A DNA stretch of 64,000 nt, from positions 108,192 through 172,191 of the forward strand of contig CACMOZ010000002.1 in NCBI GenBank assembly GCA_902615435.1. Direction: 5' to 3'. The notes under the pieces are model-generated. The model ran no database searches, was not told the DNA's origin, and was given only the letters and a program-made list of their open reading frames with translations. Position 1 is the first letter of the stretch; every line of letters begins with the position of its first letter. This DNA comes from an uncultured Pelagibacteraceae bacterium. GTDB taxonomy: Bacteria; Pseudomonadota; Alphaproteobacteria; Pelagibacterales; Pelagibacteraceae. The translations under genes were made by a program, and so were the position numbers. Of this stretch, positions 44,741-63,250 are shown piece by piece.

Positions 44741-45439
44741 TTAAACTTTCAATTTTTCTAACTCTTCTCCTGGTTGGAAAACTTCTAATTTTTTCCATCC
44801 CAAATTTTTAAATACACTTAAAACTTTTTCACTTATACATAATACTCTAGAATCTGTCATCAACCCATTCAGGGAGTATTTTTTTACTATATCAATAAAA
44901 CTCTCGGCACTTCTTTTAGAATAAATAAAAATTATGTCAGGAGGATGATTGTTAATTATTTTGTTATTTTCTTCATTAAGATCAGTAATTTTTTCAGAAG
45001 TATAGTTGATAATCTTATCAATCTGAAATCCATCATTTTTAAGTTCGATGTCTAGATTAGAGGAGATATAATCACCACAGAAATAAGCAATAGATTTTTT
45101 TTTATCAATTTGATCAGAATTTAAAATAATATTTTTTAAAGCATTTATAGTTCCACCTGCAGAAATTGTATTGTGATATCCTTCTTGTCTTACAATTTTT
45201 TCTGTAATAGAGCCCACACAAAAACATAACTTATTATTATCTTGATTTTTCAACTTTAAATTTCTTATAGCGTTTGCACTTGTAAAAATAAACGCATCGT
45301 ATTTTTTTGCGTCTACTGGACTAGAGTTGGCTTCTGAAATCTTTAAAGTTGGGATGTGAACAATCTTATGGCCTAGAGAAAAAAGTTTTCCCATTAAGTC
45401 TTCTGAATCTATTAAAGGTCTTGTGATTAGAATATTCAT
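44741..45439 (-). CDS. hemD: uroporphyrinogen-III synthase
   Basis: This 232-residue, poorly conserved enzyme closes the tetrapyrrole ring. The N-terminal ILITRPLIDSEDL, FIFTSANAIRN near residue 51 and IFIYSKRSAESFI near residue 170 fit the two-lobed HemD fold. The 4-nt overlap with hemC makes the assignment secure by context. Confidence 0.88.
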   Translation of the reverse strand: MNILITRPLIDSEDLMGKLFSLGHKIVHIPTLKISEANSSPVDAKKYDAFIFTSANAIRNLKLKNQDNNKLCFCVGSITEKIVRQEGYHNTISAGGTINALKNIILNSDQIDKKKSIAYFCGDYISSNLDIELKNDGFQIDKIINYTSEKITDLNEENNKIINNHPPDIIFIYSKRSAESFIDIVKKYSLNGLMTDSRVLCISEKVLSVFKNLGWKKLEVFQPGEELEKLKV

Positions 45440-46356
45440 TTTTTTTTAAATTCCGATCCTGCAAGTTTTAATAGTTCTTCCCCTACTGATTTACCAATGT
45501 TCACTGCTTCACTAGTTTTACCCGTCGTCTCATACTCATAGCTTTTTAATCCTGAGTCTGAAAATAGTTGAGCAGTAAATTTAAGATTACTATTTTCTAT
45601 TATTGCTAAACCTCCAACAGCTGTTTCGCAATCACCTTTAATTGTTTGTAGCATTGCACGTTCAGATTTTGCACATACTTCTGTTTCTTTATCGTTAATA
45701 TTTCTCAAAAGATTTTTAGCTACATCGTCATTTTTATTACACTGCACAGCTATTATACCTTGCCCCACTGCAGGCAAAACTTCTTCAGTTTTAAAAGATA
45801 AACCTATTTTATTAGCTAAATTTAAACTTTTGACTCCTGCTGCAGCCAAGATTATTCCATCTAATTTTCCTTCTTCGAATTTTCTAATTCTAGTATCAAT
45901 ATTTCCTCTCATACTTGTAACAGAAATATTTTTATTAATTTTTTTAAGTTGTAATTCTCTTCTTTTAGAACTTGAACCAATAACTATTTTACCTTTTAGA
46001 TCTTCTAAGCTTTTAATCTTATCACTTATAATCACATCTCTACAATCATTTCGCTTTATATATGCGCCAATGATAAGGTTGTTATCTTCCACGGACTCCA
46101 TATCTTTTAAGGAATGAACAGCAATATCAATTTCTTTCTTCAAAAGTTTCTCTTCAATTTCTTTACAAAATAGATTTTTGCCGCCTATTTCAGATAATTT
46201 TACATTTTGATTAATATCACCGGAAGTTTTGATAGCTTTAAAGTCTATATTTTCTTCTTTCAAGTCAGCATTTTTTTGAATTAAAAGCTCTTTCACTTTT
46301 TCAACATAAGCAATTGAAAGCTTGCTTCCTCTGGCGCCGATTGTAATTTTAGTCAT
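45436..46356 (-). CDS. hemC: porphobilinogen deaminase (hydroxymethylbilane synthase)
   Basis: This 306-residue enzyme builds the linear tetrapyrrole. It has ITIGARGSKLSIAYVEKV at the N-terminus, HSLKDME near residue 81, SSKRRELQL near residue 129, and the dipyrromethane cofactor Cys in IKGDCETAVGG near residue 243. TATAAT ends 6 nt before the ATG on the minus strand, suggesting a leaderless mRNA. It is divergent from tsaD, as in many alphaproteobacteria. Confidence 0.96.
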   Translation of the reverse strand: MTKITIGARGSKLSIAYVEKVKELLIQKNADLKEENIDFKAIKTSGDINQNVKLSEIGGKNLFCKEIEEKLLKKEIDIAVHSLKDMESVEDNNLIIGAYIKRNDCRDVIISDKIKSLEDLKGKIVIGSSSKRRELQLKKINKNISVTSMRGNIDTRIRKFEEGKLDGIILAAAGVKSLNLANKIGLSFKTEEVLPAVGQGIIAVQCNKNDDVAKNLLRNINDKETEVCAKSERAMLQTIKGDCETAVGGLAIIENSNLKFTAQLFSDSGLKSYEYETTGKTSEAVNIGKSVGEELLKLAGSEFKKK

Positions 46357-46413: not shown

Positions 46414-47490
46414 ATGGCTAAAAAAATAACTTTTCTTGGGATTGAAACCAGTTGTGATGAAACAGCAGCAGCTGTTATACAAGAAAACAACAAAGGCACT
46501 GCGGACATCTTATCTAACATGGTTTCAAGTCAGATCGAAGAGCACAAAAAATTTGGTGGTGTAGTTCCTGAATTAGCTGCTAGAGCTCATCTGGAAAATA
46601 TTGAATACATTATTGATTCAGCTCTAAAAAAGAGTAAAATTTCTATTGATAAAGTGGATGGGATTGCGGCAACTGCGGGACCTGGTTTAATAGTTTGTTT
46701 AACTGTTGGTTTGAATATTGGAAAATCAATTGCTGCGTTTTCAAATAAACCTTTTTTTGGAGTAAATCATTTAGAAGGGCATGCGTTAAGTCCAGGTTTA
46801 GAGAAAAAAATTAAATTCCCTTATTTATTATTATTAATTTCAGGAGGCCATACTCAGTTTTTAATAGTTAAAGATATAAATAAATATGAACAGTTAGGAA
46901 CAACAATTGACGATGCTCTAGGCGAAACATTTGATAAAACCGCAAAAATGTTAGACCTGGGTTATCCAGGAGGACCAAGTGTTGAAAAATTTGCAAAATT
47001 GGGAGACAAAAACTTTTTTAAACTTCCTGAACCAATAATAAATAAAGCAGGTTGCAACTTATCTTTTGCTGGTCTTAAAACTGCGGTGCTAAGGGAGACA
47101 AAAAAAATCGACGGTAAAGATAAGTTGAAATATAATTTAGCTGCTTCTTTTCAAAATACAATTAATAAAATACTTTATAAAAAAACTAAAGTTGCTGTTG
47201 AAATGTTTCGAGAGAGAACAAAAAAAGAAAATTTTCAATTAATAGTAGCTGGCGGTGTTGCAGCCAACAAAACCATAAGAAAAAATTTATCAGATTTGTC
47301 TAACGAGATAGGTTTTGAAACTATTTACCCAGATTTGAAATTTTGTGGTGATAACGCTGCTATGATCGCTTGGGCAGGAATACAAAGATTCAAAAAAAAT
47401 ATGATTGATGATATTACTTTGCCCGCAAAATCAAGATGGCCGCTTGATAAGAACGCTCCTTATATGAAAGGACCGGGATTAAAGTTATAA
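46414..47490 (+). CDS. tsaD: tRNA threonylcarbamoyladenosine synthase component TsaD
   Basis: This 358-residue enzyme makes the t6A modification of ANN-decoding tRNAs. The family signatures are LGIETSCDETAAAV at residue 7 onward, metal ligands in NHLEGHALS near residue 117, SGGHTQ near residue 145, and PELAARAHLE near residue 53. It shares one base (TAATG) with the next gene. The gpsA gene frequently found downstream in alphaproteobacteria is not here. Confidence 0.96.
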   Translation: MAKKITFLGIETSCDETAAAVIQENNKGTADILSNMVSSQIEEHKKFGGVVPELAARAHLENIEYIIDSALKKSKISIDKVDGIAATAGPGLIVCLTVGLNIGKSIAAFSNKPFFGVNHLEGHALSPGLEKKIKFPYLLLLISGGHTQFLIVKDINKYEQLGTTIDDALGETFDKTAKMLDLGYPGGPSVEKFAKLGDKNFFKLPEPIINKAGCNLSFAGLKTAVLRETKKIDGKDKLKYNLAASFQNTINKILYKKTKVAVEMFRERTKKENFQLIVAGGVAANKTIRKNLSDLSNEIGFETIYPDLKFCGDNAAMIAWAGIQRFKKNMIDDITLPAKSRWPLDKNAPYMKGPGLKL

Positions 47491-47912
47491 TGCAGTATTG
47501 GTTAATAAAATCTGAACCTGATGTTTGGTCAATCGATCAACAAAAGAAAGCTGGTAGAAAAGGTGTTGCTTGGGATGGAGTAAGAAATTATCAAGCTGCA
47601 AATAACTTAAAAAAAATGAAAGTTGGAGATCTTTGCTTCTTTTATCATTCAAATATTGGAAAAGAGATTGTAGGTATAGTAAAAGTTATTGATGAGGCCT
47701 TTATTGACAAAACTGATAAAAAGAAAAGATTTGTAGCCGTCCAGGTTAGGTTTGAAGAGTATATAAAATACCCTATATCACTTGAAAAGATTAAAAAAAT
47801 TAAGACTATTTCTCATTTACCACTTATAAGACAGAGCAGACTATCAGTTATGCCAATTGATTTTAAAAGCTGGAAAATTATTTATAAGATGGGTAAAATA
47901 AAACCTAATTAG
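47490..47912 (+). CDS. EVE domain-containing protein
   Basis: This 140-residue single-domain protein has [16 protein letters not shown] at residues 3-18, [16 protein letters not shown] near residue 30, and [16 protein letters not shown] near residue 52. This is the PUA-like EVE fold that in other proteins reads modified bases. Adjacent location to tsaD recurs in many bacteria and hints at an RNA-linked role. No direct function is known here. Confidence 0.92.
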
Positions 47913-47920
47913 GAGAAATT

Positions 47921-50056
47921 GTGGCTAAAAAGAAAAAAAGAAAAGGAAAAAAGACTAAAAGGAAAAAGTCAAAAAAGATTTTAAGATCTAGAAAAAAATC
48001 TAGAAAAGTTAAAAAGTCAAGAAAAACAAAATCCAGAAAAAGAAGAAAATCAAAATCAAAAAAACCTAAAAGTAGAAGAAAAAATTTTAAAGCTCCTAAA
48101 ATACTTGAAGACGGTGATGGAAAATCTTTAATTAAAGTGTCAGACAGCTGGTCAAACCATGCCTATGTAAATGAGTCTCAATATAAAAAAAAATATAAAC
48201 TATCGATCAAGGAAAATGATAAATTTTGGGCAAAAGAGGGAAAGAGAATAAGCTGGATAAAAAAATATACTAAAATTAAAGACGTTAAATACAGTAAAGA
48301 TGAAGTAAAAATTAAATGGTTTTATGACGGAACATTAAATGCTTCTGCTAATTGTATTGATAGACACTTAAAAAAGAATCCAAGTAAAACTGCAATAATT
48401 TGGGTGGGTGATGACCCCGCTGATACAAAAAAAATTTCTTATAGAGAGCTGCATCAAAATGTTTGTAAAGCAGCAAACGGTCTTAAAAGTTTAGGAGTTC
48501 AGAAAGGAGATAGAGTTACAATTTATTTAACAATGATTCCTGAACTTGCCTATGTGATGCTAGCTTGTGCAAGAATTGGCGCTGTTCACTCAATAATTTT
48601 TGGTGGTTTTTCTCCAGACTCGATTGCGACAAGGATCACTGATTGTGAGTCAGAATACTTAATCACTGCAGATGAAGGTGTGCGAGGTGGAAAAATAATT
48701 CCATTAAAAAAAATAGCTGACGAAGCTTTGGATCAATGTCCTAATGTAAAAAAATGTGTTGTTGTTGAAAGAACTGGAAATCAAGTAAATTGGAATAATG
48801 AAAGAGATATCTCTTATAAAAAACTAATTTCATCAGCACCATCTAAATGTGATCCAGAAGAAATGAGTGCGGAAGATCCTTTGTTTATTCTTTATACTTC
48901 TGGCTCTACTGGTAAACCAAAAGGGGTATTACATACGACAGGAGGTTATATGGTTTATGCCTCAATGACTCACCAATATATTTTTGACTACAAACCTAAT
49001 GATATTTATTGGTGCACAGCTGATATTGGTTGGGTAACAGGTCACAGTTATATCATATACGGTCCTCTTGCTAATGGAGCCACAACTATTATGTTTGAAG
49101 GTGTTCCAAATTATCCTGACAATTCAAGATGGTGGCAAATCGTAGATAAATACAAAGTAAATATATTTTACACTGCCCCTACTGCAATAAGAGCTTTGAT
49201 GAGGGAGGGAGACGGTCCGGTAAAAAAAACAAGTAGAAAATCTCTAAAATTATTAGGTACAGTTGGTGAACCAATTAATCCTGAAGCTTGGATGTGGTAC
49301 TACAAAACAGTTGGGGATGCTAGGTGTCCTATAGTTGACACTTGGTGGCAAACTGAAACTGGCGGAATTTTAATAGCGCCTCAACCTGGTGCAATAGATT
49401 TAAAACCTGGATCAGCAACAAAACCATTTTATGGTATAAAACCAGTTTTAGTAGATAAGGACGGGAAAATCATCAAAGGTGAGGGGCAAGGAAGATTATG
49501 TATGGCTAGTTCTTGGCCAGGACAAATGAGAACGGTTTATGGAGACCATAAAAGATTTATAGACACATATTTCTCTCAGTTTGATGGAAAATATTTTACA
49601 GGTGATGGATGCAGAAGAGACAAGGATGGATATTATTGGATTACAGGAAGGGTTGACGATGTGATTATAGTTTCTGGTCATAATCTTGGAACTGCAGAAA
49701 TTGAAAGTGCTTTTGTTGCCCATCCTAAAGTAGCTGAAGCAGCAGTGGTTGGTTTCCCTCATAGTATTAAAGGAAATGGATTATACTGTTATGTTACTTT
49801 AAACGCAGGGGAAAATCCTACAGGAGATTTAGAAAGAGATCTAAAACAATGGGTAAGAAAACAAATAGGTCCTATTTGCTACCCTGATGTAATTCAATTC
49901 GCTCCAGGGCTTCCTAAAACTAGATCTGGAAAAATCATGAGAAGAATTTTAAGAAAAATAGCTGCGAATGAACCTGATAATCTAGGAGACACTACAACCT
50001 TAGCTGATCCTAGCGTAGTAACTTCCTTAGTCGAAAACAGACAAAATAGAGACTAA
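47921..50056 (+). CDS. acs: acetyl-CoA synthetase with an extra Lys/Arg-rich N-terminal tail
   Basis: This 711-residue AMP-forming enzyme activates acetate. The ACS core starts about residue 70 ([17 protein letters not shown]). [14 protein letters not shown] is near residue 326, WWQTETGG near residue 475, and the regulatory/catalytic Lys is in [12 protein letters not shown] near residue 670. The first 55 residues are about two-thirds Lys/Arg with Ser/Thr, resembling a histone H1 tail. The GTG start is supported by AGGAG 5 bases upstream, and there is no internal Met start near the normal N-terminus, so the tail appears real. It is followed by a symporter system that may import the substrate. 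Confidence 0.94.
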
Positions 50057-50682
50057 TTAAAATTTAAATTTTTTGTTAACTTTTTGAATTCATCTATTTT
50101 AAGATTCCATTTTAGTCTCATCGAATTTAAAACTATCTCTTTATCTAAAATTTTTAATTCATCTGCTATAGGTGCCCAATTATAAAGTGCCGTACAACTT
50201 TCTAGAAATGGATTATCTAAGTAATATTTATTAAAGTCTATTTTTTCATATCGATTTAAAAATTCTTGTTTAGCTTTTAAATACACTTCATCACTTAAAC
50301 CATTTTCTTTTTCTTTTTCAATAATATTTAAATAAATCTTTTTACAATCATTCTCTTTGAGATTTTTTTCGCTTATTAAGTAAGAAAAAGTATAAAAAGT
50401 GCAATCAGCTATAGCAATCATATAAATATTCCATTTTGCAATATTAATTGACTTAGAAAAAACTGCATCATCAACCATAGCTGTATATTTTACTCCAATT
50501 CTAGTCTTCAAATAACCATACAAAGTTGTTTGCGTAACATGAGCTGATCTTTGTTGAATAAATTTTTGTAGATCGGCTTTTGATTTGATACTTTTGAAAT
50601 AACTACTTACTTTCTCAATAGGGAATAAATATTCCCCCATAGTTTTTAGAGTGATTCTAAGTTTTTCTAGATTCAATTTCAC
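50053..50682 (-). CDS. uncharacterised conserved protein
   Basis: This 209-residue soluble, largely helical protein has no signal peptide. [19 protein letters not shown] near residue 45 looks like a conserved block I associate with unassigned alphaproteobacterial proteins; I cannot name a function. It converges with acs with a 4-nt stop overlap and is divergent from the symporter pair across a 154-bp spacer containing a palindrome. It may share regulation with the acetate genes, but that is inference. Confidence 0.6.
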
Positions 50683-50774
50683 GTTGTATTTTAAAAACCC
50701 TTATTTTACTTAACTTATAGCATTTCATATTGGTTTTAGGGTCCTTTTTTCTCTTTAAATTAAACTCATAATGG

Positions 50775-50787
50775 GTAAGGTTCTTAC
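50775..50787 (+). promoter_or_regulatory. small inverted repeat upstream of the symporter pair
   Basis: GTAAG-GTT-CTTAC, a perfect 5-bp inverted repeat, 11 bp upstream of the larger palindrome. Confidence 0.4.
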
Positions 50788-50797
50788 AACTAATAAT

Positions 50798-50815
50798 ACT
50801 TTTTACGTAAAAAGT
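50798..50815 (+). promoter_or_regulatory. perfect 18-bp palindrome, operator-like
   Basis: ACTTTTTACGTAAAAAGT is its own reverse complement. It ends 21 bp before the start of the DUF4212 gene. It could be a dimeric repressor site or a 5'-UTR hairpin; no U-run of terminator type follows. Confidence 0.6.
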
Positions 50816-50836
50816 TAAAAATAAATAGGGGGAAAT

Positions 50837-51094
50837 ATGTCAAATAAAGACGCATATTGGAATAAGACCAAAAACCATATGATCGTAACATTGGTTCTTT
50901 GGGCTTTCTTCTCATTAGTGATCTTCATGTTTGGTTCGGAACTGAACACGATGTCTTTTCTTGGCTATCCACTAGCATATTACATGACTGCGCAAGGTTC
51001 ACTTCTTGCCTTTGTGATAATTTTGTTTTGGACTGCAAATAAACAAGAAAAAATCGACGAAGAACATGGTTTCTCAGAAAGAGAGGATGACTAA
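50837..51094 (+). CDS. DUF4212 small subunit of a sodium:solute symporter
   Basis: This 85-residue protein has two membrane helices (about residues 14-36 and 45-70). YWNKTKNHMIVTLVLWAFFS and FPLAYYMTAQGS-like spacing (YPLAYYMTAQGSLLAFV) fit the family. This small protein always precedes an SSS-family permease of the VC_2705 type, and does so here with a TAATG overlap. A GGGGGA Shine-Dalgarno sequence lies upstream, unlike most genes in this window. Confidence 0.88.
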   Translation: MSNKDAYWNKTKNHMIVTLVLWAFFSLVIFMFGSELNTMSFLGYPLAYYMTAQGSLLAFVIILFWTANKQEKIDEEHGFSEREDD

Positions 51095-52950
51095 TGTTTA
51101 AAGGAGATTTTATAAAAAACCTTCCTAAAATATACGGGACCTACACAGGTGGTTTCATAGTATTCATCATATTGATGGCTATTGCGGAACAAGCTGGTGT
51201 GTCAGCTAAAAACATCGGAGTGATGTTCGTGGCTTTCACGGTTTTGATCTATGCCTTAATCGGTTATTTATCACGAACCATACAAGTAGATGCCTACTAT
51301 GTTGCAGGAAGACAAGTGCCAACCGTATTTAACGGGATGGCAACAGCAGCTGACTGGATGTCAGGTGCTTCATTCGTAGCCTTAGCGGGTGGAGTTTACT
51401 TTGGAGGTTATACTTATATGGCCTTCTTAGTAGGTTGGACAGGTGGATATGTACTTGTAGCAACTTTAATGGCTCCGTACCTTAGAAAATTTGGGTGTTA
51501 TACAGTTCCTGATTTTATTGGAACACGATACGGTGGTAATCTCGTAAGAGCTTGCGCAGTATTCGTGCTTTTCATAGCATCATTTACTTACGTAACTGCA
51601 CAAATTAATGCTACGGGTACAATTGCTTCTAGAGCTCTTGGAATTCCGTTTGAAGCAGGTGTATGGGTAGGATTAATAAGTATCCTTATCTGTTCAATGC
51701 TAGGAGGAATGAGAGCCGTAACTTGGACTCAGGTTGCTCAGTACATTGTATTAATCATCGCATACTTAATACCAGTATTCTGGATTAGTTCTAACGTAGG
51801 TGGAGGAATTTTCCCTCACTTGATGTTGGGTGATGAAGTTGCAAGACTTGGCGAACTTGAAAAACAATTTGGACTAGTTAAAAACAGCGCCGCAGATATG
51901 AAAGCAGCTGGGGTACCAGGAGGATTGAAATATATCTCTGGAACTCACTCTGGAGTACCTGAAGGTGGAATGGCTGTCTGGAAATACTTATCGTTAGCGA
52001 TTTGTATGATGGTGGGAACTGCATCGTTACCTCATATCTTAATGAGATACTTTACAACTCCTACAGTAAGAGCAGCGAGAAAATCAGTAGCTTGGTCGCT
52101 ATTTTTTATTTTCTTACTATACTCTTCAGCGCCTATGTTAGCGACATTGTCTAAGTTAGCATTGATGGATCCAACTCTACCAACTGGAATTATCGGAAAA
52201 TCTATTTCTGAAGTTCAGTCAATAGAGTGGGTACAAAGATGGTCTGAAGTTAAACAAGTATTTATCGCAGACTTTAATGGTGACGGTATACTTCAGTTGA
52301 ACGAATGGTTTATGAGAGGTGACGTTGTAGTATTAGCTACTCCAGAAGTAGCGGGACTACCGTTCGTGATCTCAGGACTAGTGTTTGCTGGAGGTATGGC
52401 TGCTGCCATGTCAACTGCTGACGGTCTTGTATTAGCGATATCAAATGCTTTATCTCATGATATTTACTACAAAATCATAGATCCAAAAGCTGATACAGCT
52501 AAAAGACTTTTAGTTGCTCGTGTACTTCTAGTAATAATCGGAGCTGCTGGTGCTTACATAGCCTCTTTCAGGTTAACAAGTATCTTAGGTTCGGTTGCTT
52601 GGGCATTCGACTTCGCAATGTCTGGCTTGTTCTTCCCACTTGTACTTGGTGTATGGTGGAAGAGAGCTACTAGAGCTGGTGCAATCGCCGGTATCATAGC
52701 GGGAATTGGTTCAGGAACATTATACTTATTGTGGGTGTTCCCGAAATTCTCTGTGCCGATATTCGGTGGTGTTAACACTCCATTCTTAGGTATTGACCAC
52801 TTAAGATTTGGTTTAATTGGTGCACCAATTTGTTTGGTTGTAATGGTTGTGGTCAGTTTAATGACTAAAGAACCTAGCCCAGCTATACAAAAATTAGTAG
52901 ACGATACAAGGATACCTACAGGTAAGGCTATTCTTGGTAAGCAACACTAA
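51094..52950 (+). CDS. sodium:solute symporter (VC_2705/ActP-like) with an EF-hand loop
   Basis: This 618-residue SSS-family permease has about 13 spans. DAYYVAGRQVPTVFNGMAT near residue 69 and ADWMSGASFVALAGG near residue 87 match acetate/pyruvate-type symporters. A hydrophilic insert near residues 380-410 contains DFNGDGILQLNE (residues 393-404), which fits the canonical 12-residue calcium-binding EF-hand loop with D, N, D, G and E at the expected places. Proximity to acs suggests uptake of acetate or another small carboxylate. It is followed by a strong terminator. Confidence 0.9.
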   Translation: MFKGDFIKNLPKIYGTYTGGFIVFIILMAIAEQAGVSAKNIGVMFVAFTVLIYALIGYLSRTIQVDAYYVAGRQVPTVFNGMATAADWMSGASFVALAGGVYFGGYTYMAFLVGWTGGYVLVATLMAPYLRKFGCYTVPDFIGTRYGGNLVRACAVFVLFIASFTYVTAQINATGTIASRALGIPFEAGVWVGLISILICSMLGGMRAVTWTQVAQYIVLIIAYLIPVFWISSNVGGGIFPHLMLGDEVARLGELEKQFGLVKNSAADMKAAGVPGGLKYISGTHSGVPEGGMAVWKYLSLAICMMVGTASLPHILMRYFTTPTVRAARKSVAWSLFFIFLLYSSAPMLATLSKLALMDPTLPTGIIGKSISEVQSIEWVQRWSEVKQVFIADFNGDGILQLNEWFMRGDVVVLATPEVAGLPFVISGLVFAGGMAAAMSTADGLVLAISNALSHDIYYKIIDPKADTAKRLLVARVLLVIIGAAGAYIASFRLTSILGSVAWAFDFAMSGLFFPLVLGVWWKRATRAGAIAGIIAGIGSGTLYLLWVFPKFSVPIFGGVNTPFLGIDHLRFGLIGAPICLVVMVVVSLMTKEPSPAIQKLVDDTRIPTGKAILGKQH

Positions 52951-52969
52951 TTAACAATAATTTAAAATT

Positions 52970-53001
52970 AAAAGGGGCGAATTTTTCGCCCCTTTTTTTT
53001 T
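52970..53001 (+). terminator. rho-independent terminator after the symporter
   Basis: GGGGCGA/TCGCCCC stem (52974-52980 with 52986-52992) flanked by A and T runs, followed by nine U residues, 20 bp after the symporter stop. Confidence 0.93.
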
Positions 53002-53026
53002 ACCTAAATAATGATATTTTAAAAGT

Positions 53027-53362
53027 ATGATACCTACTTGGGCAATTGTTTTAGATTATGTTTTAGGGACCATAATGTGGACTTTAATAGGCAGAGCATT
53101 CATGAATATCTTTCAAAGAGAAGACTCTACATTCTTTTTCATGAGAGTTTTCGTTAAATATACTAATCCAATTATTAATTTGTTTAAATTTATAACACCT
53201 AGTTTTTTATTTGGTCCATTTATCGCTCTATATGTTGCATGGTTTTTCTACCTATTTAGATTTTATGCCATGCCATATATTTTGGGATATGATGTCTGGG
53301 GAATGCTAGCATTTCCCCTTGAGAGTGACTTTTCAAGACAACTTTACCAGTTATTCAACTAA
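53027..53362 (+). CDS. small membrane protein of unknown function
   Basis: This 111-residue protein has hydrophobic segments near residues 5-27 and 55-85 and an aromatic-rich centre (FFFMRVFVKYTNPIINLF). The overall layout (helix, RAFM..., P-rich turn, helix) is loosely like YggT, but I cannot assign it. An extended -10 (TGATATTTT) ends 6 nt before the ATG, just downstream of the symporter terminator, supporting an independent, leaderless gene. Confidence 0.65.
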   Translation: MIPTWAIVLDYVLGTIMWTLIGRAFMNIFQREDSTFFFMRVFVKYTNPIINLFKFITPSFLFGPFIALYVAWFFYLFRFYAMPYILGYDVWGMLAFPLESDFSRQLYQLFN

Positions 53363-53375
53363 TACCTTAATTTTT

Positions 53376-53403
53376 TTGACAAAGTTTTAGTTTAAAATAT
53401 AAA
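53376..53403 (+). promoter_or_regulatory. sigma70 promoter of rpe
   Basis: Perfect -35 TTGACA (53376-53381), 16-bp spacer, -10 TATAAA (53398-53403), then 6 nt to the ATG at 53410. The predicted transcription start is the A of the start codon. Confidence 0.7.
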
Positions 53404-53409
53404 CAAATT

Positions 53410-54072
53410 ATGAGCGGTATAATTAAAATTTCACCTTCAATATTATCTGCTGATTTCAGCAAGCTGGGTAATGAGGTTATTGCTTTAGAAAAAGCAGGTG
53501 CTGATTACATTCATATTGATGTTATGGATGGGCATTTTGTTCCAAATCTTACTATAGGGCCTGAAGTTATTAAAAAACTAAGACCTCTTACAAAGAAAAC
53601 ATTTGATGTTCATTTAATGATCTCACCAGTTGATAATTTTATTAAAGATTTTGCAGATGCTGGCGCAGACATCATTACTTTTCATCCTGAAGCTACTTCC
53701 GATGTTTCTAAAACAATAGAACTTATAAGAAACCAAAATAAAAAAGTTGGTATTTCTTTAAAGCCTAAATCAAAAATTGATTTAATTAAAAAACATTTAG
53801 ATCAAGTTGACTTAGTTTTAATTATGAGTGTGGAACCTGGCTTTGGTGGACAAAAATTTATGCCGGAAGTTTTGGAAAAAACAAAATCTATAAGAAGTTT
53901 GATCAATGAAAAAAATTTAGATGTAGATGTTGAAATTGATGGCGGAATTAATTTTGAAAATTGTTCTAAAGCAAAGAATGCAGGTGCAAATATACTTGTA
54001 TCGGGGTCTACTGTCTTTAAAGAAAATAAAGGTGACCTAAAAAAAAATATAGAGATTCTTAGAAACAATTGA
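53410..54072 (+). CDS. rpe: ribulose-phosphate 3-epimerase
   Basis: This 220-residue TIM-barrel enzyme of the pentose phosphate pathway has ISPSILSADFSKL at the N-terminus, YIHIDVMDGHFVPNLTIGP near residue 33 with the metal-binding Asp and His, VDLVLIMSVEPGFGGQKF near residue 136, and EIDGGIN near residue 176. rpe followed by a heparinase-like gene and purH is a familiar alphaproteobacterial arrangement. Confidence 0.96.
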   Translation: MSGIIKISPSILSADFSKLGNEVIALEKAGADYIHIDVMDGHFVPNLTIGPEVIKKLRPLTKKTFDVHLMISPVDNFIKDFADAGADIITFHPEATSDVSKTIELIRNQNKKVGISLKPKSKIDLIKKHLDQVDLVLIMSVEPGFGGQKFMPEVLEKTKSIRSLINEKNLDVDVEIDGGINFENCSKAKNAGANILVSGSTVFKENKGDLKKNIEILRNN

Positions 54073-54075
54073 TAA

Positions 54076-55713
54076 ATGTTTGGACTTAAAGGTGTCTATT
54101 TTTATTTAGTAGCATGCCAAATAATGCTAATAAAATTTTTTAAAAAAATTTATTTTACATCTAAAAATTATAATAGATCATTAGAAACTAAAACACCTCA
54201 ACAAGTTTACTACAATCCAAATCCTTATTTGCTATCAATCATAACATCATTCGGTAAGCAATCTTTTGAAATAAGCGAGATTGATCCAAATATTTTTTGG
54301 ATTGAAGATAAAAAAAAAAATACTGAACAAATGCATAATTTCTTCTGGCTCAGTTTAATTGATAGAAAATCAGACCATGCGAAATTGAAAAAAATTATCT
54401 ACGTTTGGATTTTGAAAAATTCAAAATATAGAAAAAAAATCTGGGAGACCTCTACGTTAAGTGCTAGAGTTATAAGTTGGATTTTAAATGTAGATATTAT
54501 TTTAAAAGATAGTACATTTGATTTTCGAAAAAATTTTCTAAATTGCATCATAAGTCAGACTAATCACTTAAAAAAAAATATAAGATTTGAGAAAGACTTA
54601 TCCAAGAAAATTGAACTTTTAACAGCTGTTATTTTAACGGGACTAGTTTTTAAAGAATATGAAGACAACTATAATATTGGTATAAAGGAGTTAGAAAAGC
54701 TTGTTAAAGATTTTTTTGATGTAGATGGTTTTCCATTATCTCGTAGTCCTGATGATTTATTTTTTTTTTCAAAATATTTGATATTTTGTAAAGAAGTGAT
54801 TAAAGACAGCCAATTGTATGTACCTGAATTTTTAGAAGACATTATAGAAAAAAATTTAAGTTGTATTAATTTTATCAAAACACCCGATGAACAGCTTCCA
54901 TTATTTAATGGTGCTACATGTATTAAATTAGATCAAATTGAAAAATATTTAGAGAGTTTAAAACTTAGTAATAGAAATCACAGTTTAGGTGGATTGTTTA
55001 AAATAAAGCATAAAAATCATTTCATAATAATAGATATTGATAGACCTCCTGAAAAAAAATTTTCAAAATCATATCAGTCGGGTCCTCTTTCCTTTGAGTA
55101 TTTTTTAGATGGAATAAAAATAATATCAAACTCCGGATTTGGTAAACAAATCTCAAAAAAAGCAGAGTTGCTTAGTCGGCTAACTGCGTGCCAATCAACC
55201 TTAACCATTAATGATACTTCGATAACAAAATTTGAAAAAAGTGAAATGATAAATAAAGTTTTCGGCAACTCAATTAAAAACACCTTCAAATCTTTTGATT
55301 TTAATTCAAAAAATGAAGATGATGTTGTAGGATGTTCTGTTTCTAATAATGGATATGAAAAAAATTTTGGCTGCATTCACCGAAGAGAGATTTATGTAGA
55401 TAAGCAGAAAAATTACCTTAAAGGTGTAGATCATATCTATAAAGCTAAGGATGGTTACCCGATAAGATATGCCTTTAGGTTTCATATTAATCCAGAACTA
55501 AACGTAGTAAAAACTATGAGTGGAAATAGTGTTTTAATTCAAATTTCTAAAAATAAATCCTTACTCTTCACAATTAATAATGAAAATTTAGAGATTCATA
55601 AAAGTATATTTTTAGGTGAAAAAAAAATAATAGATAGTAATTGTATCTTAATCAGTGGTAATTTAGTTAATAAAAATAAAATTTTCAGCTGGGAAATAAA
55701 AAAAAACATTTAA
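54076..55713 (+). CDS. heparinase II/III family protein
   Basis: This 545-residue protein has an N-terminal helical toroid region and a C-terminal beta domain. GGLFKIKHKNHFIIIDID near residue 309 and GPLSFEYFLDGIKIISNSG near residue 336 correspond to the heparinase II/III-like sandwich. No signal peptide is obvious. The family lyses or binds uronate-rich glycans, but members in this rpe-purH slot of alphaproteobacteria have no established function. It is 3 bp from rpe and 2 bp from purH. Confidence 0.8.
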   Translation: MFGLKGVYFYLVACQIMLIKFFKKIYFTSKNYNRSLETKTPQQVYYNPNPYLLSIITSFGKQSFEISEIDPNIFWIEDKKKNTEQMHNFFWLSLIDRKSDHAKLKKIIYVWILKNSKYRKKIWETSTLSARVISWILNVDIILKDSTFDFRKNFLNCIISQTNHLKKNIRFEKDLSKKIELLTAVILTGLVFKEYEDNYNIGIKELEKLVKDFFDVDGFPLSRSPDDLFFFSKYLIFCKEVIKDSQLYVPEFLEDIIEKNLSCINFIKTPDEQLPLFNGATCIKLDQIEKYLESLKLSNRNHSLGGLFKIKHKNHFIIIDIDRPPEKKFSKSYQSGPLSFEYFLDGIKIISNSGFGKQISKKAELLSRLTACQSTLTINDTSITKFEKSEMINKVFGNSIKNTFKSFDFNSKNEDDVVGCSVSNNGYEKNFGCIHRREIYVDKQKNYLKGVDHIYKAKDGYPIRYAFRFHINPELNVVKTMSGNSVLIQISKNKSLLFTINNENLEIHKSIFLGEKKIIDSNCILISGNLVNKNKIFSWEIKKNI

Positions 55714-55715
55714 TA

Positions 55716-57266
55716 ATGAATTTAAAAGTCAAAAACGCTCTTATATCTGTTTCAAATAAAGAAAATTTATTTTCGCTTCTTAAGACTTTTAAAAAATTTA
55801 ATATTAATATTATAAGTTCTGGTGGAACCTATGCAGCTATTAAAAAACTAGGTTTTAAGTGCACTGAGTTATCTAAATACACCGGTTTTAAAGAGATGTT
55901 AGATGGAAGAGTTAAGACACTTCATCCTAAAATACACGCAGGTATTCTTCATGATAGACAAAATAAAAAACATAAAAGTGAAATGTCTAAACAAAATTTT
56001 CCATCGATTGATCTTATTATTGTTAACTTTTATCCATTTCAAAAAATTGTTTTGAATACTAAGAGTCCAAAAGAGATAATAGAGAATATAGATATAGGCG
56101 GTCCAACAATGGTTAGAGCTGCTGCAAAGAATTTTAAAAACGTTACTATTGTTACCAATGTAAGCGACTATAGCTTGCTGGTTAAGGAATTAAAAACTTT
56201 TAATGGAAAAACATCTCTAAAATTTAGAGAACTTATGTCTTCAAAAGCTTTTGGTTTAACAGCCTACTATGATGCCATGATTGCTAATTGGTTTAATAAA
56301 AAACTAAATATTAAATTTCCAGAAAGAAAAACGATCTTTGGAAGAAAATTTCAAAACTTGAGATACGGTGAAAATCCTCATCAACAAAGCTCTATATATA
56401 TAAATGACTACGATGATAAAAATTTAAAATTTGACCAAATACATGGAAAAGAATTAAGTTTTAATAATTACAATGATATGTTTGCATCATTAATTATCTT
56501 AAACTCACTAAAAAAGAATTCTGGAACTGTCATAATTAAACATGCTAATCCATGCGGTGTTTCTGAAAATAAAGTCCCATTTCTCTCTTTTAAGAATGCT
56601 TATGCATCTGATCCTATAAGTGCTTTTGGAGGAGTCATCGCTTGTAATTATAAAATCAATAGAAAAATTGCAAATGAAATTAGGAAAAATTTCTTGGAGG
56701 TCATTCTTGCTAAAGGTTTCGATAAAGAGTCTCTTAAAATATTAAGATCAAAAAAAAATTTGCGTATTATAGATATATCTAATTTTAAAATGGAAAACCT
56801 TACATCTATAAAATCTTTTGATGGTTCTTTCTTAGTACAAACTAAAGATAATATTGTAATAGATAAAAAAAAATTAAAGTGTGTTACTAAATTGAAACCC
56901 ACTAAAAAAGAGTTAGCAGAAATTCAATTTGCTTTTAATATTTGTAAACATGTTAAATCTAATGCAATTGTACTGTGTAATGATTTCTCAACAATAGGTA
57001 TTGGAGCAGGTCAGCCTAGTAGGCTAGACAGTTGTAAAATCGCAGTACAAAAAGCTAAAAGATTTCAATCCTCAAAAATTAAATATTCTATAGCAGCGTC
57101 TGATGCTTTTTTTCCATTTGCTGATGGTATTAATACTCTTATTAGAGCTGGTGTAAAAGTAATTGTTCAACCTGGTGGATCAATTAGGGATCAGGAAGTT
57201 ATAAATGCTGCAAATAAAGCTAAAATTAAAATGATTTTTACTGGTATAAGGCATTTTAATCATTAG
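55716..57266 (+). CDS. purH: bifunctional AICAR transformylase/IMP cyclohydrolase
   Basis: This 516-residue enzyme performs the last two steps of IMP synthesis. The N-terminal cyclohydrolase domain shows IISSGGTYAAIKKLG near residue 33 and VKTLHPKIHAGIL near residue 67. The C-terminal transformylase shows IIKHANPCGVSE near residue 271, SDAFFPFADGI and the IVQPGGSIRDQEVI loop. It ends with a 4-nt overlap against the convergent phhB. Confidence 0.96.
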   Translation: MNLKVKNALISVSNKENLFSLLKTFKKFNINIISSGGTYAAIKKLGFKCTELSKYTGFKEMLDGRVKTLHPKIHAGILHDRQNKKHKSEMSKQNFPSIDLIIVNFYPFQKIVLNTKSPKEIIENIDIGGPTMVRAAAKNFKNVTIVTNVSDYSLLVKELKTFNGKTSLKFRELMSSKAFGLTAYYDAMIANWFNKKLNIKFPERKTIFGRKFQNLRYGENPHQQSSIYINDYDDKNLKFDQIHGKELSFNNYNDMFASLIILNSLKKNSGTVIIKHANPCGVSENKVPFLSFKNAYASDPISAFGGVIACNYKINRKIANEIRKNFLEVILAKGFDKESLKILRSKKNLRIIDISNFKMENLTSIKSFDGSFLVQTKDNIVIDKKKLKCVTKLKPTKKELAEIQFAFNICKHVKSNAIVLCNDFSTIGIGAGQPSRLDSCKIAVQKAKRFQSSKIKYSIAASDAFFPFADGINTLIRAGVKVIVQPGGSIRDQEVINAANKAKIKMIFTGIRHFNH

Positions 57267-57772: not shown

Positions 57773-58390
57773 ATGAAAAATTTTCCTAAAACCATTCCAA
57801 TCTTTCCTCTAAATGGTGTGATATATTTTCCTAAAACAAATCTGCCTTTGAACATATTTGAAAAACGATATCTAAATCTGGTCAATGATGCTTATGTTAA
57901 AGATAAATTGATGGGAATGGTTCAGTCTAAAAAGGAAGAAAAAGGTGTTTATCATGTTGGATGTTTGGGAAAAATTAGTGATTACCAAAAAAGCCCGGAT
58001 GGGCGTATTTTGATAAATTTAACTGGTATCTCTAGATTTAAAATTTTAGAAGAAATTTCTAACGATAAATTATATCGAGAATTTAAAGTTGATTATGAAA
58101 AATTTGATATAGATCTTAAAGAAGACCTCAAAGAGGTTAACTCTGATTCTTTGATGCAAAAAGCTAAAATTTTTTTTAAGAGAAATGGTCTTTTGCTCAA
58201 CTGGAAAGAATTTGAAAAACTTGATCAAATACAAAAAATAAATACTTTGGCTATGATTTCGCCAGTAACAAATGAGGAAAAGCAAAAATTGCTAGAGGCG
58301 ATATCCACTAAAGATAAAGTGGACACACTTGAAAGTATAATTAGCTTTTATTTACACGAAACTGGTTTAAACAACCAGACGATACAATAA
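57773..58390 (+). CDS. LON N-terminal (substrate-binding) domain protein
   Basis: This 205-residue stand-alone LON domain has IPIFPLNGVIYFPKTNLPLN at residues 9-28, FEKRYLNLVNDA, and GCLGKISDYQKSPDGRILI near residue 63. It lacks the AAA and protease domains of Lon. Such proteins are widespread in alphaproteobacteria with no settled role. It is convergent with rho, with 2 bp between stops. Confidence 0.88.
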   Translation: MKNFPKTIPIFPLNGVIYFPKTNLPLNIFEKRYLNLVNDAYVKDKLMGMVQSKKEEKGVYHVGCLGKISDYQKSPDGRILINLTGISRFKILEEISNDKLYREFKVDYEKFDIDLKEDLKEVNSDSLMQKAKIFFKRNGLLLNWKEFEKLDQIQKINTLAMISPVTNEEKQKLLEAISTKDKVDTLESIISFYLHETGLNNQTIQ

Positions 58391-59730: not shown

Positions 59731-60165
59731 TTATAATTGGGGCTTAAAAACTACAACAAATACAACAACAATTAGTATAATTGTAGGCACCTCATTAATT
59801 ATTCTATAAAATTTGGAAGAGTTATTGTTATCATCCATAGCAAAATTTCTTAAATACTTTCCAAGTAAAAAATGATAATAAGTTAAAATTAATACAGCAA
59901 AAATTTTTATCTGCATCCAAAGTTCATAAAATATCTCAAAGCCAAGGCTCTTTATTAATAAAATTCCAAAAAGCCATGAGAGCAGCATTGCTGGCATCAT
60001 TATATAGTTATAAAGTTTTCTTTCCATAATTTTAAAAACATTTTTTTGAGATACCTCTGTGGTCTCTGAGTGATATACAAATATTCTTGGTAAATATAAT
60101 AATCCTGCCATCCAAGAGATAATAGCTATTAAATGTAAAGATTTAAATAGAAGGTATAAATTCAT
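59731..60165 (-). CDS. hemJ: protoporphyrinogen oxidase HemJ
   Basis: This 144-residue protein has four spans and the HemJ signature LLFKSLHLIAIISWMAGLLY-type N-terminus: SLHLIAIISWMAGLLYLPR near residue 9, followed by FVYHSE near residue 29. Conserved His and a Lys/Tyr-rich loop (MQIKIFAVLILTYYHFLLG) are present. It catalyses the penultimate heme step in bacteria lacking HemG/HemY and lies 1 bp from hemH. Confidence 0.9.
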   Translation of the reverse strand: MNLYLLFKSLHLIAIISWMAGLLYLPRIFVYHSETTEVSQKNVFKIMERKLYNYIMMPAMLLSWLFGILLIKSLGFEIFYELWMQIKIFAVLILTYYHFLLGKYLRNFAMDDNNNSSKFYRIINEVPTIILIVVVFVVVFKPQL

Positions 60166-60166
60166 T

Positions 60167-61156
60167 TTAAATGTATTTTTTTACAAGTTTTTCAAATAGG
60201 TTTATATGATCCTCGCTGTCATTAAGACAAGGCACTAAATCAAAATTTTTTCCACCATTGTCTAAAAAACTCTCTCTCCCTTGAATATTAATTTCTTCCA
60301 AAGTTTCAACACAATCTGAAGCGAAGCCTGGACAAATTACTAATAAATTTTTAACCCCTTTCTTAGGTAAATTTTCCAAAGTTTTATCAGTATATGGTGT
60401 TAGCCATTCTTGAGGGCCAAATCTAGATTGAAAAGTAGTTTGAATATCAAATGATGTGTATTTTTCTTTCATTAGCCTAGTAGTTTTCTGACAATAACAA
60501 TGATACGGGTCACCTTTATCAAAATATTTTTTAGGAATTCCATGATAAGAGGCGATAATTAAGTCTGGTTTCCAATTAATTGTTTTAACTTTTGTCTCAA
60601 TACTTTTTACAAGTGCATTAATGTACAGATCTTCACTCTCATAATGTGGTATAATTTGTAAACTAGGTTGCCATCTCATCTTCATAAAAGTTCTGTAAAC
60701 TTCATCACAAACAGTTGCTGTGGTGGCTGCGGCGTATTGGGGATATAAAGGCAAAATAATTATATTTTCACATCCTAATTCATGAAGTTCTCTTAATTTT
60801 AATTTAATACTTGGATTTCCGTACCTCATAGCAAAATCAATAATTAAATTTTCTTTTCCAATTTTATTGTTAAGTTTCGCTGACTGACTTCTTGTGAAAT
60901 ATAATAATGGAGATTCATTTGTGTCTTTTCTCCATATTTTTTTATAAGCATGAGCAGTTTTGGATGGTCTTAAAGTAAGAATGAATAAATTGAGTATAAT
61001 TTGCCATAGGATTGGGTTAACTTCTATTACTCTTCTGTCGGACAAAAATTCTTTTAGATACTTTCTTATATCCCACCAGCTAGTTGAGTCTGGTGTACCT
61101 AAATTTATTAATAAAATTCCTGTTTTACCAAAATTTACCCTTGGGTGATCTTTCAT
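60167..61156 (-). CDS. hemH: ferrochelatase
   Basis: This 329-residue enzyme inserts iron into protoporphyrin IX. It has LLINLGTPDSTS near residue 15, FLSDRRVIEVNP near residue 37, LPLYPQYAAATT near residue 133, and the metal-binding His in ASYHGIPKKYFDKGDPY near residue 205, followed by TFQSRFGPQEWLTPYT. It starts 1 bp after hemE ends. Confidence 0.96.
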   Translation of the reverse strand: MKDHPRVNFGKTGILLINLGTPDSTSWWDIRKYLKEFLSDRRVIEVNPILWQIILNLFILTLRPSKTAHAYKKIWRKDTNESPLLYFTRSQSAKLNNKIGKENLIIDFAMRYGNPSIKLKLRELHELGCENIIILPLYPQYAAATTATVCDEVYRTFMKMRWQPSLQIIPHYESEDLYINALVKSIETKVKTINWKPDLIIASYHGIPKKYFDKGDPYHCYCQKTTRLMKEKYTSFDIQTTFQSRFGPQEWLTPYTDKTLENLPKKGVKNLLVICPGFASDCVETLEEINIQGRESFLDNGGKNFDLVPCLNDSEDHINLFEKLVKKYI

Positions 61157-61157
61157 T

Positions 61158-62162
61158 TTAATACTCCCTATAAAACTTAATCAATTTTTCGACTTTAACC
61201 GGGTCTGTCTCAGGAAGCAAACCATGACCTAAATTAAATACATAAGGTGATTTTTTAAATGTATCTAAATACTTTTCGGCTCTTTTAAAGATCTCTTTTT
61301 CTGAAGATAATAATGCATTTGGGCTTAAACCGCCTTGCAATACAACATTTTTAAGATTTTCTTTTGCCCATATAGGATTAATATCGTAATCAAGATTTAA
61401 TCCATTCGGCTTAACCAAATTATTAAATTCTTTGTAGTTTTCACTTATCCCTTTTGGAAAACATATAACAGGTATTTTCTTATTTTTACAAAAATCAACA
61501 AGTTTTAAATTTGGGATGTAACAATAGTCTTGTAAATTTTCGGGTGTTATTAAACCGGCCCAAGAGTCAAAAATTTGTACAACATTTGCTCCAGCGGCAA
61601 TTTGGTTTTCAATGTGAAGGCAAAGATAATCGTGTAAGTTATCTAAAATTAGATTTACCTCAAATTCTTTTTTTTTTAATATCTCATAATCTACTTGGTT
61701 TTTACCAATTTTAGACCCCAGCATATAAATGAGTAATGTCCATGGAGCTCCAATAAAAGCTATTAATGATTTTTCCTTTTCAAGCTTTTCTCTAGTGTTT
61801 TTTATTGCTTTATAAACAGGTTGTAATTTTTGAGAGAATTTATTTTTGTTATTGTTTAAAAAATTTTCAATTTTAAATTCTTCTAATTTAGGTCCATGGT
61901 CTTTAATAAATTCTACTTTTTGACCTAGCGCATACGGAACCATGAGTATATCTGAAAAGATAATAGCTGAATCTAAGTTAAACCTTTTAATTGGTTGAAG
62001 TGTAATTTCAGAACTTAAATCACTATTTAGGCAGAGCTGAATAAAATCTTTATTTTGAGATCTAATTTCTCTAAATTCAGGTAAATATCTACCTGCTTGT
62101 CTCATAAACCAGACAGATTTACAAACCTTTTTATTTATTAATATTTCTTCAAGATCACTCAT
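61158..62162 (-). CDS. hemE: uroporphyrinogen decarboxylase
   Basis: This 334-residue enzyme makes coproporphyrinogen III. It has VWFMRQAGRYLPEFREIR near residue 17, IIFSDILMVPYALGQ near residue 68, GAPWTLLIYMLG near residue 139, VQIFDSWAGLI near residue 195 and FNLGHGLLPETDP near the C-terminus. It is the first gene of hemE-hemH-hemJ-rho and reads away from the predicted origin. Confidence 0.96.
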   Translation of the reverse strand: MSDLEEILINKKVCKSVWFMRQAGRYLPEFREIRSQNKDFIQLCLNSDLSSEITLQPIKRFNLDSAIIFSDILMVPYALGQKVEFIKDHGPKLEEFKIENFLNNNKNKFSQKLQPVYKAIKNTREKLEKEKSLIAFIGAPWTLLIYMLGSKIGKNQVDYEILKKKEFEVNLILDNLHDYLCLHIENQIAAGANVVQIFDSWAGLITPENLQDYCYIPNLKLVDFCKNKKIPVICFPKGISENYKEFNNLVKPNGLNLDYDINPIWAKENLKNVVLQGGLSPNALLSSEKEIFKRAEKYLDTFKKSPYVFNLGHGLLPETDPVKVEKLIKFYREY

Positions 62163-62264
62163 AAAAGTAATTTAGTTTTAAGAATAGTATATATATTAGG
62201 TCTTGTTAGTTAGTTATATAACGATTTCTACAACTTTTATACATTTTGAAGTTAATAAGTTTCC

Positions 62265-62278
62265 TTAATTTTACTTAA
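62265..62278. repeat. TTAA pair with 10-bp spacing in the origin region
   Basis: TTAA at 62265-62268 and 62275-62278, within the tandem CTTAATTTTA repeat. Confidence 0.6.
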
Positions 62279-62320
62279 TTTTCTGTTTTTATTTATTTTA
62301 TAAACATTAAAAAAACATTA

Positions 62321-62329
62321 TTATCAACA
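62321..62329 (+). other. DnaA-box-like sequence TTATCAACA
   Basis: One mismatch from the E. coli consensus TTATCCACA. Related TTATAAACA (62298-62306) and TTATTAACA (62418-62426), each with two mismatches, lie in the same orientation. Confidence 0.55.
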
Positions 62330-62342
62330 ATCAATAAAATGT

Positions 62343-62366
62343 TTAAGTAATGTTAATTAATGTTAA
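62343..62366. repeat. tandem 10-bp repeat TAATGTTAAT with phased TTAA
   Basis: TTAA occurs at 62343-62346, 62353-62356 and 62363-62366, exactly one helical turn apart. Perfect tandem copies of TAATGTTAAT lie at 62348-62357 and 62358-62367. This is a plausible unwinding or protein-binding element next to the DnaA-like box. Confidence 0.65.
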
Positions 62367-62431
62367 TTGTTTTTTTTAAATTAAATGAAATATGTAAAAA
62401 ATAAATTCATTAATACTTTATTAACATAGAT

Positions 62432-63250
62432 ATGAACCAAAAATACAATGTATATCTTGTGTCTGATTCTACCGGTGAAACTCTTGATAGAATTTTCTTA
62501 TCCTTGAAGTCCCAATTTGCAAATTTTGATTATGAGAAAAAAGAATTTGCATTTATTAGGACAGAACAGCAAATCGACAAAATTATCAATGAATGCAATC
62601 AAATAGAGAATTCAATTATACTTTACACTATTGTAGAAACAAAGTTAGCTAAGTATTTGGCAAAACAAAGCGCAAAAAGCTCTGTACCTTGTTTTGGTGT
62701 GTTAGGTAATTTAATTTTGAGTTTCTCAAAACTTCTAAACCAAAAAGCTATACACAAACCTAGCGCTCAACACGTTTTGGATGATGATTATTATAAAAGA
62801 ATAGAAGCCATTCAATTTACAATGTCACATGATGATGGAAAAAAAGTAGATGATATAAATGATGCCGATGTGGTTTTATTGGGAGTAAGCAGAACAAGTA
62901 AAACACCAACCTCAATTTACTTAGCCAACAGAGGTTATAAAACTGTAAATATACCTTTAGTATTAGACCAAAATATTCCAAAAGATTTACTCATAAATAA
63001 ATCATCTTGCATTGTTGGCTTAGTAGCCGATCCAGAGAGATTATCAGATATTAGGCGTAACCGAGTTGCAATAATGAAAGATCAAAATCTTAAAGAATAT
63101 ACTGACTTAGGATCTATAAAAAAAGAAGTCGAAGACTCAAGAAGGTTATTTAAAAAAAATAATTGGCCAATTATAGATGTAACTAGAAGGTCAGTCGAGG
63201 AAACTGCTGCATCTATACTTAAAATTATGGAGATAATGAAAAATAAATGA
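62432..63250 (+). CDS. pyruvate, phosphate dikinase/PEP synthase regulatory protein (DUF299)
   Basis: This 272-residue kinase/pyrophosphorylase toggles PEP synthase or PPDK activity. It has YLVSDSTGETLDRIFLSL at residues 8-25, SAQHVLDDDYYKRIEAIQF near residue 112, the P-loop-like GVSRTSKTPTSIYLANRGYK near residue 150, and RRSVEETAASIL near the C-terminus. It is the homologue of Rickettsia RP001 that flanks the origin in alphaproteobacteria. It overlaps maf by 4 nt. Confidence 0.93.
   Translation: MNQKYNVYLVSDSTGETLDRIFLSLKSQFANFDYEKKEFAFIRTEQQIDKIINECNQIENSIILYTIVETKLAKYLAKQSAKSSVPCFGVLGNLILSFSKLLNQKAIHKPSAQHVLDDDYYKRIEAIQFTMSHDDGKKVDDINDADVVLLGVSRTSKTPTSIYLANRGYKTVNIPLVLDQNIPKDLLINKSSCIVGLVADPERLSDIRRNRVAIMKDQNLKEYTDLGSIKKEVEDSRRLFKKNNWPIIDVTRRSVEETAASILKIMEIMKNK

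Follow-up and report, generated by a model that had tools for sequence, protein, structure and literature searches.

The 269-nt intergenic element that separates hemE from the divergently oriented DUF299 gene in this SAR11 genome is very probably the chromosomal replication origin (oriC), judging from its sequence and from that of its relatives. The element carries a cluster of DnaA-box-like sites, its conservation is independent of the flanking genes, and both the strand bias and the inversion geometry of related chromosomes centre near it. A probable origin between these two genes had been proposed in a first-pass annotation of the same DNA, and box clusters, neighbour exchange, strand bias and inversion geometry all support that proposal. 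The location itself is an expected one, and the element is a new member of the hemE/RP001-type origins, RP001 presumably being the Rickettsia name of the DUF299/Kinase-PPPase gene. No paper placing a SAR11 origin at hemE/DUF299 was found in the literature surveyed, and a prediction may well exist in DoriC.

Position and composition of the intergenic element

The window, i.e., the whole 64-kb stretch of DNA that was analysed (G000:C2:108192-172191), belongs to an assembly of 1.04 Mb in 24 contigs (86.75% complete), in which dnaA is located on a separate contig (C5). Open reading frames and profile matches place hemE and DUF299 on either side of the element (Table 1), exactly where the first-pass annotation had them. 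Beyond hemE follow hemH, a UPF0093 gene and rho, and beyond DUF299 follows maf. The accompanying statement that the flanking genes point outward holds for hemE and DUF299 themselves, but not for genes farther out on the hemE side (46414-57266 and 57773-58390), which face the gap. The haem genes on this side are grouped (59731-62162) and comprise hemE, hemH and the UPF0093 gene, which we take to be HemJ-like; hemC- and hemD-like ORFs, judged by eye, lie at 44741-46356, about 16 kb from the hemE group.

The AT-richness noted in the first pass was borne out, with 85.1% AT in the gap against 68.9% in the window, a value reached by only 8 of 63,732 windows of 269 nt. The AT-richest stretch of this length, starting at 62168, overlaps the gap; outside the gap the highest value is 84.8%, at 2606. 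Local duplex stability was discarded as a distinguishing mark: it is low in the gap, yet not uniquely so, with 159 of 63,940 60-bp windows being at least as unstable as the weakest stretch of the gap.

Table 1 Features of the proposed origin and its flanks (window coordinates)
Feature	Position	Strand	Basis
Proposed oriC, whole hemE-DUF299 intergenic element	62163-62431	.	Little length variation beside hemE, high AT, excess of boxes, conserved blocks
hemE, uroporphyrinogen decarboxylase (flank)	61158-62162	-	PF01208, E=4.9e-85
DUF299/Kinase-PPPase, COG1806 (flank)	62432-63250	+	PF03618, E=3.6e-91
hemE-end element TATATTAGG-TC-TTGTTAGTTA	62192-62212	-	Conservation across 85 unique gaps of close relatives
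Two conserved blocks, ATTTCTACA (62224) and TTTTATACA (62235), 11 nt apart	62224-62243	+	Alignment
DnaA-box-like TTATAAACA, 2 mismatches to TTATCCACA	62298-62306	+	Pattern match, alignment
DnaA-box-like TTATCAACA, 1 mismatch to TTATCCACA	62321-62329	+	Pattern match, alignment
Inverted TGTT repeats TGTTTAAGT (62340), TGTTAATTA (62351), TGTTAATTG (62361)	62340-62369	-	Conserved in 85 unique gaps
Terminal DnaA-box-like TTATTAACA, 5 nt ahead of the DUF299 start codon	62418-62426	+	Pattern match

DnaA-box-like sites and their conservation

Three sites of the form TTATN[A/C]ACA lie in the gap (62298, 62321 and 62418), against nine in the whole 64 kb, and the gap is the sole stretch of about 300 nt in the window that contains more than one. 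The tandem pair 62298/62321 is one of two such pairs in the 1.04-Mb assembly, in which the reversed-pattern control yielded one. No perfect TTATCCACA occurs in the window's gap, the closest site being TTATCAACA with one mismatch.

DUF299 was found in 118 of 147 family genomes, and gaps were parsed for 78 relatives (13 genera) from 82 loci, among which L053 was left out and three genomes had two loci each. Five of these gaps, from a genus without adjacent hemE (g9), were cut upstream of DUF299 at 290 or 270 nt for the counts and at 330 nt in the alignment. Together the 78 gaps hold 174 TTATN[A/C]ACA sites compared to 12.7±3.6 in dinucleotide shuffles, an approximately 14-fold excess, although the gaps are related by descent and thus do not represent 78 independent tests. 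With the window scan, these shuffles place the clustering of the three sites beyond chance, in line with the DnaA-box-like sequences reported in the first pass. A looser form, TTATNNACA, is present in all 13 genera examined, ranging from 0.33 per gap in g7 to 3.25 in g2, and a word with at most two mismatches to TTATCAACA lies within the last 30 nt of 70 of the 78 gaps (a count made without a shuffle control). In about 500 kb sampled from each of two relatives, G005 and G009, the box cluster at the gap ranks top; in a third, G043, the gap has one strict box and is absent from that genome's top clusters.

The length of the element is nearly fixed, with 261-294 nt in all 73 hemE-flanked gaps (12 genera) and, among 80 named relatives, 263-283 nt between hemE and DUF299 in 78; the two that miss, L194 and L242, lie at contig ends. 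These 78 named relatives (DUF299 identity 73-93%, with genus not checked for each) and 26 same-genus gaps gave 104 sequences, 85 of them unique, for a close-relative alignment. Conserved blocks, most of them box-like, are separated in this alignment by variable sequence. From the hemE end onward they read TTAGGTC-TTGTTAGTTA, TTTaTACA, TTTTATACA, TTATAAACA, TTATNAACA, three TGTT repeats and TTATTAACA.

The hemE-end element holds an inverted weak DnaA-box-like site, TGTTAGTTA (62204-62212), beside a degenerate DnaA-trio (TAT TAG), and in some sister genera the same position is occupied by TAG/TAT repeats and an inverted box. In the window's genus the blocks ATTTCTACA and TTTTATACA are ambiguous: on the hemE strand they resemble -10 elements (TATAAA), and they could instead be weak DnaA boxes. 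Certain other genera have TTATCAACA or TTATTAACA at this position. Successive TGTT repeats are separated by 11 and 10 nt, close to one turn of the helix, and may be weak DnaA sites. In one relative (G040:C1:358209-359176) hemE beside DUF299 was matched in two pieces, the second with two internal stop codons, which points to a frameshift, to gene decay or to an error in the sequence.

Exchange of the neighbouring genes

In genus g9, hemE is not beside DUF299 in any of five loci, and rho adjoins the gap in the two whose ORFs were read (G009 and G031). The gap between rho and DUF299, parsed in four of the five loci (G054 being left out), is longer, at 346-353 nt, and contains 1-3 strict boxes. 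It aligns to the gaps of other genera at both ends. In two genomes of this genus, G009 and G022, hemE was found several hundred kb from the gap, and loci L079 and L158 are likewise without adjacent hemE. The distant hemE matches PF01208 more weakly (E about 1e-56, against 1.6e-81 or better in 11 of the 14 genomes searched), which suggests that another hemE copy has taken over in these genomes.

The opposite side is exchanged in f2, a sister family within the same order. None of its 18 listed genomes (G147-G164) gave a DUF299 match, and the family appears to be without this gene. Ten f2 genomes were sampled, one of which had no hemE match; in all nine parsed loci (Maf side by longest ORF) a gap of 271-281 nt that contains box-like sites separates hemE from Maf. 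A second Maf was observed elsewhere in most of the nine parsed genomes. Within the SAR11 order, replacement has therefore taken place on both sides, with rho for hemE in one genus and Maf for DUF299 in the sister family, and the gap element outlives its neighbours. In other alphaproteobacterial families, hemE lies divergently beside DUF299 in 24 of 29 fetched loci (drawn from 54 genomes with DUF299, out of 96 searched), and three of the five misses still have a hemE motif in the locus.

That both exchanges were survived would not be expected of a plain hemE or DUF299 promoter. The gap could be only a long divergent promoter region of these two genes, in which the box-like words are promoter parts such as -10 elements or TTAA-rich operators, but this is improbable. 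While both genes do need promoters in the gap, and -10-like TATAAA is a possible reading of the blocks at 62215-62243 on the hemE strand, the box-like sites persist where rho stands for hemE or Maf for DUF299, exceed the shuffles to the extent given above, and form the top cluster in the window and in sampled G005 and G009, though not in G043.

Strand bias and nucleotide skew

Skew was sampled in 20 stretches (400 kb, 29-34%) from each of three single-contig relatives, G005, G009 and G043. On the hemE side, 7 of 10 stretches in G043 and 8 of 10 in both G009 and G005 had negative raw GC skew; on the DUF299 side it was positive in 6, 9 and 9 of 10, respectively. At four-fold sites GC skew tended in all three toward negative values in genes on the plus strand and positive values in those on the minus strand, the reverse of the raw pattern, and raw GC skew therefore mainly reports gene orientation here. 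As a locator of the origin, four-fold GC skew did poorly, being weak (gap versus dnaA: 0.7 v 0.3 in G005, 2.1 v 2.5 in G009, 6.4 v 3.0 in G043) and of reversed sign relative to raw skew.

Likelihood gains were calculated with added stretches (35-43%) as the sum of strand bias and four-fold AT skew, two terms that are not independent. The sum favoured the gap over dnaA in G005 (40.0 v 24.1), in G009 (34.1 v 26.2) and, by only a little, in G043 (28.8 v 26.3). Strand bias preferred the gap in all three (27.0 v 18.3 in G005, 29.5 v 20.5 in G009, 18.4 v 14.4 in G043). Four-fold AT skew did so only in G005 (13.0 v 5.8) and slightly preferred dnaA in G043 (10.4 at the gap v 11.9) and G009 (4.6 v 5.7), so the summed preference comes from strand bias. 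Unconstrained two-point fits placed both terms on the gap in G005, strand bias at -26 kb and AT skew at -86 kb in G009, and AT skew at -19 kb and strand bias at -439 kb in G043.

In the ±110 kb sampled around the gap, the minimum of the raw cumulative skew lay on the hemE side, at -31.8 kb in G043, -18.4 kb in G009 and -17.8 kb in G005. Accordingly, skew places the origin only roughly, in a neighbourhood rather than at a base: the strand switch is near the gap in all three relatives, the raw minimum is off by 18-32 kb and AT skew is mixed. The first-pass annotation had regarded a skew minimum located elsewhere, for instance beside dnaA, as evidence against an origin in the gap. With respect to dnaA the likelihoods favour the gap in all three genomes, whereas the raw minimum does lie 17.8-31.8 kb away. 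The remaining placement is done by box clusters, neighbour exchange and inversion geometry.

An origin at this raw minimum itself, 18-32 kb from the gap on the hemE side, seems very unlikely, even though all three sampled genomes have their cumulative minimum there and the summed likelihood of G009 peaks at -20 kb (37.1, compared to 34.1 at the gap). Genes found at about -4 to -20 kb in G005 and G009 sit at +21 to +40 kb in G043; gene content at the minimum thus differs, and the minimum is not tied to one conserved site. In addition, the top lists of the three genomes include no window with at least two strict boxes in that region, and the axis of inversion lies on the other side of the gap, at +5 to +6 kb.

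Inversions and the position of dnaA

The distance between dnaA and the gap is 61-74 kb in the 13 relatives (11 single-contig, 2 few-contig) that have both on one contig. Of the 11 single-contig genomes, eight have dnaA on the hemE side (61-64 kb) and three on the DUF299 side (70-73 kb); the two few-contig genomes, G074 and G051, also have it on the hemE side, about 63 and 74 kb away, respectively. Such a position on either side at near-constant distance would be expected from inversions pivoting near the gap. Within 110 kb, 85 of 105 reciprocal best matches between G043 and G005 were on opposite arms, with a mid-axis at +5.5 kb (IQR 4.8-12.2), and 88 of 109 between G043 and G009, with a median axis at +6.4 kb (IQR 6.1-11.7), while all 131 matches between G005 and G009 were on the same arm. 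Between the genera (G043 versus G005 and G009) the two arms are swapped over about -72 to +72 kb relative to the gap, and a core of about 16-23 kb around the gap retains its orientation. The two axes share G043 and may reflect one event or history.

Inversions are usually symmetric about the origin, and the axis at +5 to +6 kb argues against dnaA as the origin. An origin beside dnaA is a common bacterial arrangement, the complete genome G005 is numbered from dnaA, and four-fold AT skew alone slightly prefers dnaA in G043 and G009; nevertheless, there is very little chance of an origin at that site, 61-74 kb away. Summed likelihood is lower at dnaA in all three genomes (weakly so in G043), dnaA changes sides (hemE side in 10 of 13 genomes, DUF299 side in 3 of 13), and the 300 nt upstream of dnaA contain one strict box in 12 loci (from a set of 14, L040 with only 9 nt upstream and L044 being left out). 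The DnaA protein itself matches solved DnaA structures along most of its sequence (best 8btg, E=3.2e-99), and RDHTT is retained, indicating that its box-reading domain is intact.

DnaA-trios, CtrA sites and GANTC

Runs of TAG/TAT were found in several genera, and a trio run is clear in some relatives and degenerate in the window's genus. Two f2 loci (L304 and L306) show TAG TAG TAG TAG, a spacer and inverted boxes at the hemE end. In the basal unwinding system at least three NAN trios lie 0-16 nt from a DnaA box; DnaA-trios were evaluated in 87 gaps with a score of our own (60 shuffles per gap). The score reached p<=0.05 in 26 of the 87 gaps, including 2 of 9 in f2, 0 of 6 in g5, 0 of 4 in g2 and 1 of 26 in the window's genus. 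The best run was located at the hemE end in 36 of 87 gaps compared to 6.5 expected, and in 0 of 26 in the window's genus. Trio-like runs at the hemE end of some relatives are therefore suggestive. For the window itself a DnaA-trio is degenerate and unsupported, with no best run at the hemE end among the 26 same-genus gaps.

CtrA gating found no specific support either. Pairs of TTAA at CtrA spacing (TTAA-N7-TTAA) were raised in the 78 gaps (38 v 19.5±4.4 in shuffles), but pairs at 6-nt spacing were equally raised (39 v 21.3±4.8), which leaves no spacing preference and no CtrA-specific signal; the window's own gap has one pair at CtrA spacing and three at 6-nt spacing. Orthologs of ctrA have been reported absent from Pelagibacter (PMC2877005). 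GANTC does not occur in the window's gap and is scarce in the 78 gaps (3 v 11.6±3.7 in shuffles). As GANTC methylation is described to differ between ori and ter in Pelagibacter (PMC9516812), methylation could follow replication even with no such sites inside the origin.

Comparison with known origins and a possible mechanism

The DUF299 family corresponds to COG1806 (PMC1914354), and hemE and COG1806 flank the experimentally found origin of Caulobacter crescentus, Cori, as well as the predicted origins of Rickettsia (PMC1914354). The first-pass annotation had likewise pointed to the Caulobacter gene pair. Both the SAR11 gap and Cori are AT-rich and contain several DnaA boxes, five in the case of Cori (PMC1914354). 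The SAR11 gap is shorter, however, with 269 nt compared to more than 400 bp (PMC1914354), and is without CtrA-specific TTAA spacing and without GANTC, ctrA being reported absent from Pelagibacter (PMC2877005). The Rickettsia predictions are alike in their hemE/COG1806 flanks; in the predicted origin of Wolbachia COG1253 replaces COG1806, a neighbour exchange that resembles those in SAR11, and both sets of predictions also lean on CtrA and IHF sites (PMC1914354).

Compared to the basal unwinding system, the trios are degenerate in the window's own genus. The order of DnaA boxes and DnaA-trios described for it (PMC8287927) is the same in the f2 loci L304 and L306 and in some sister genera.

In the proposed mechanism, DnaA encoded elsewhere would bind a set of relaxed boxes with the consensus TTATNAACA and oligomerise, the filament growing along helically phased weak sites. 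The AT-rich DNA would then open, helicase would be loaded, and two forks would leave through hemE and DUF299. Unwinding would most likely start at the hemE-end element in relatives that keep DnaA-trios. A broader reading, which we consider possible rather than probable, is that the SAR11 origin is a single portable module about 270 nt long. One end would bear an inverted box together with DnaA-trios; the module would also contain relaxed boxes TTATNAACA in phase, and would show almost no GANTC and no spacing specific to CtrA. Such a module would have stayed in place while neighbours on either side were exchanged, and its trios would have decayed in the window's genus, where opening might proceed on the box array alone.

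Coverage of SAR11 genomes has been described as V-shaped with a single origin and one terminus, without a location in the portion of the source considered here (PMC9589681), and HTCC1062 is discussed among chromosomes that origin and terminus may divide unequally (PMC2099444).

Implications for SAR11 biology

SAR11 ranks with the most abundant groups of marine bacteria (PMC7111523), and its growth at sea is estimated from origin-to-terminus coverage. Clade II was without a settled usable reference genome in one study, in which HIMB058 is named (PMC9589681); HIMB058 also turned up here, as close relative L182. With its conserved landmarks, an origin resolved to the base would provide an anchor for such growth estimates and, at the same time, a testable model for origins that show no CtrA-specific signal. 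The value of the locus lies in its combination of conserved anatomy and neighbour exchange, which makes a direct test simple.
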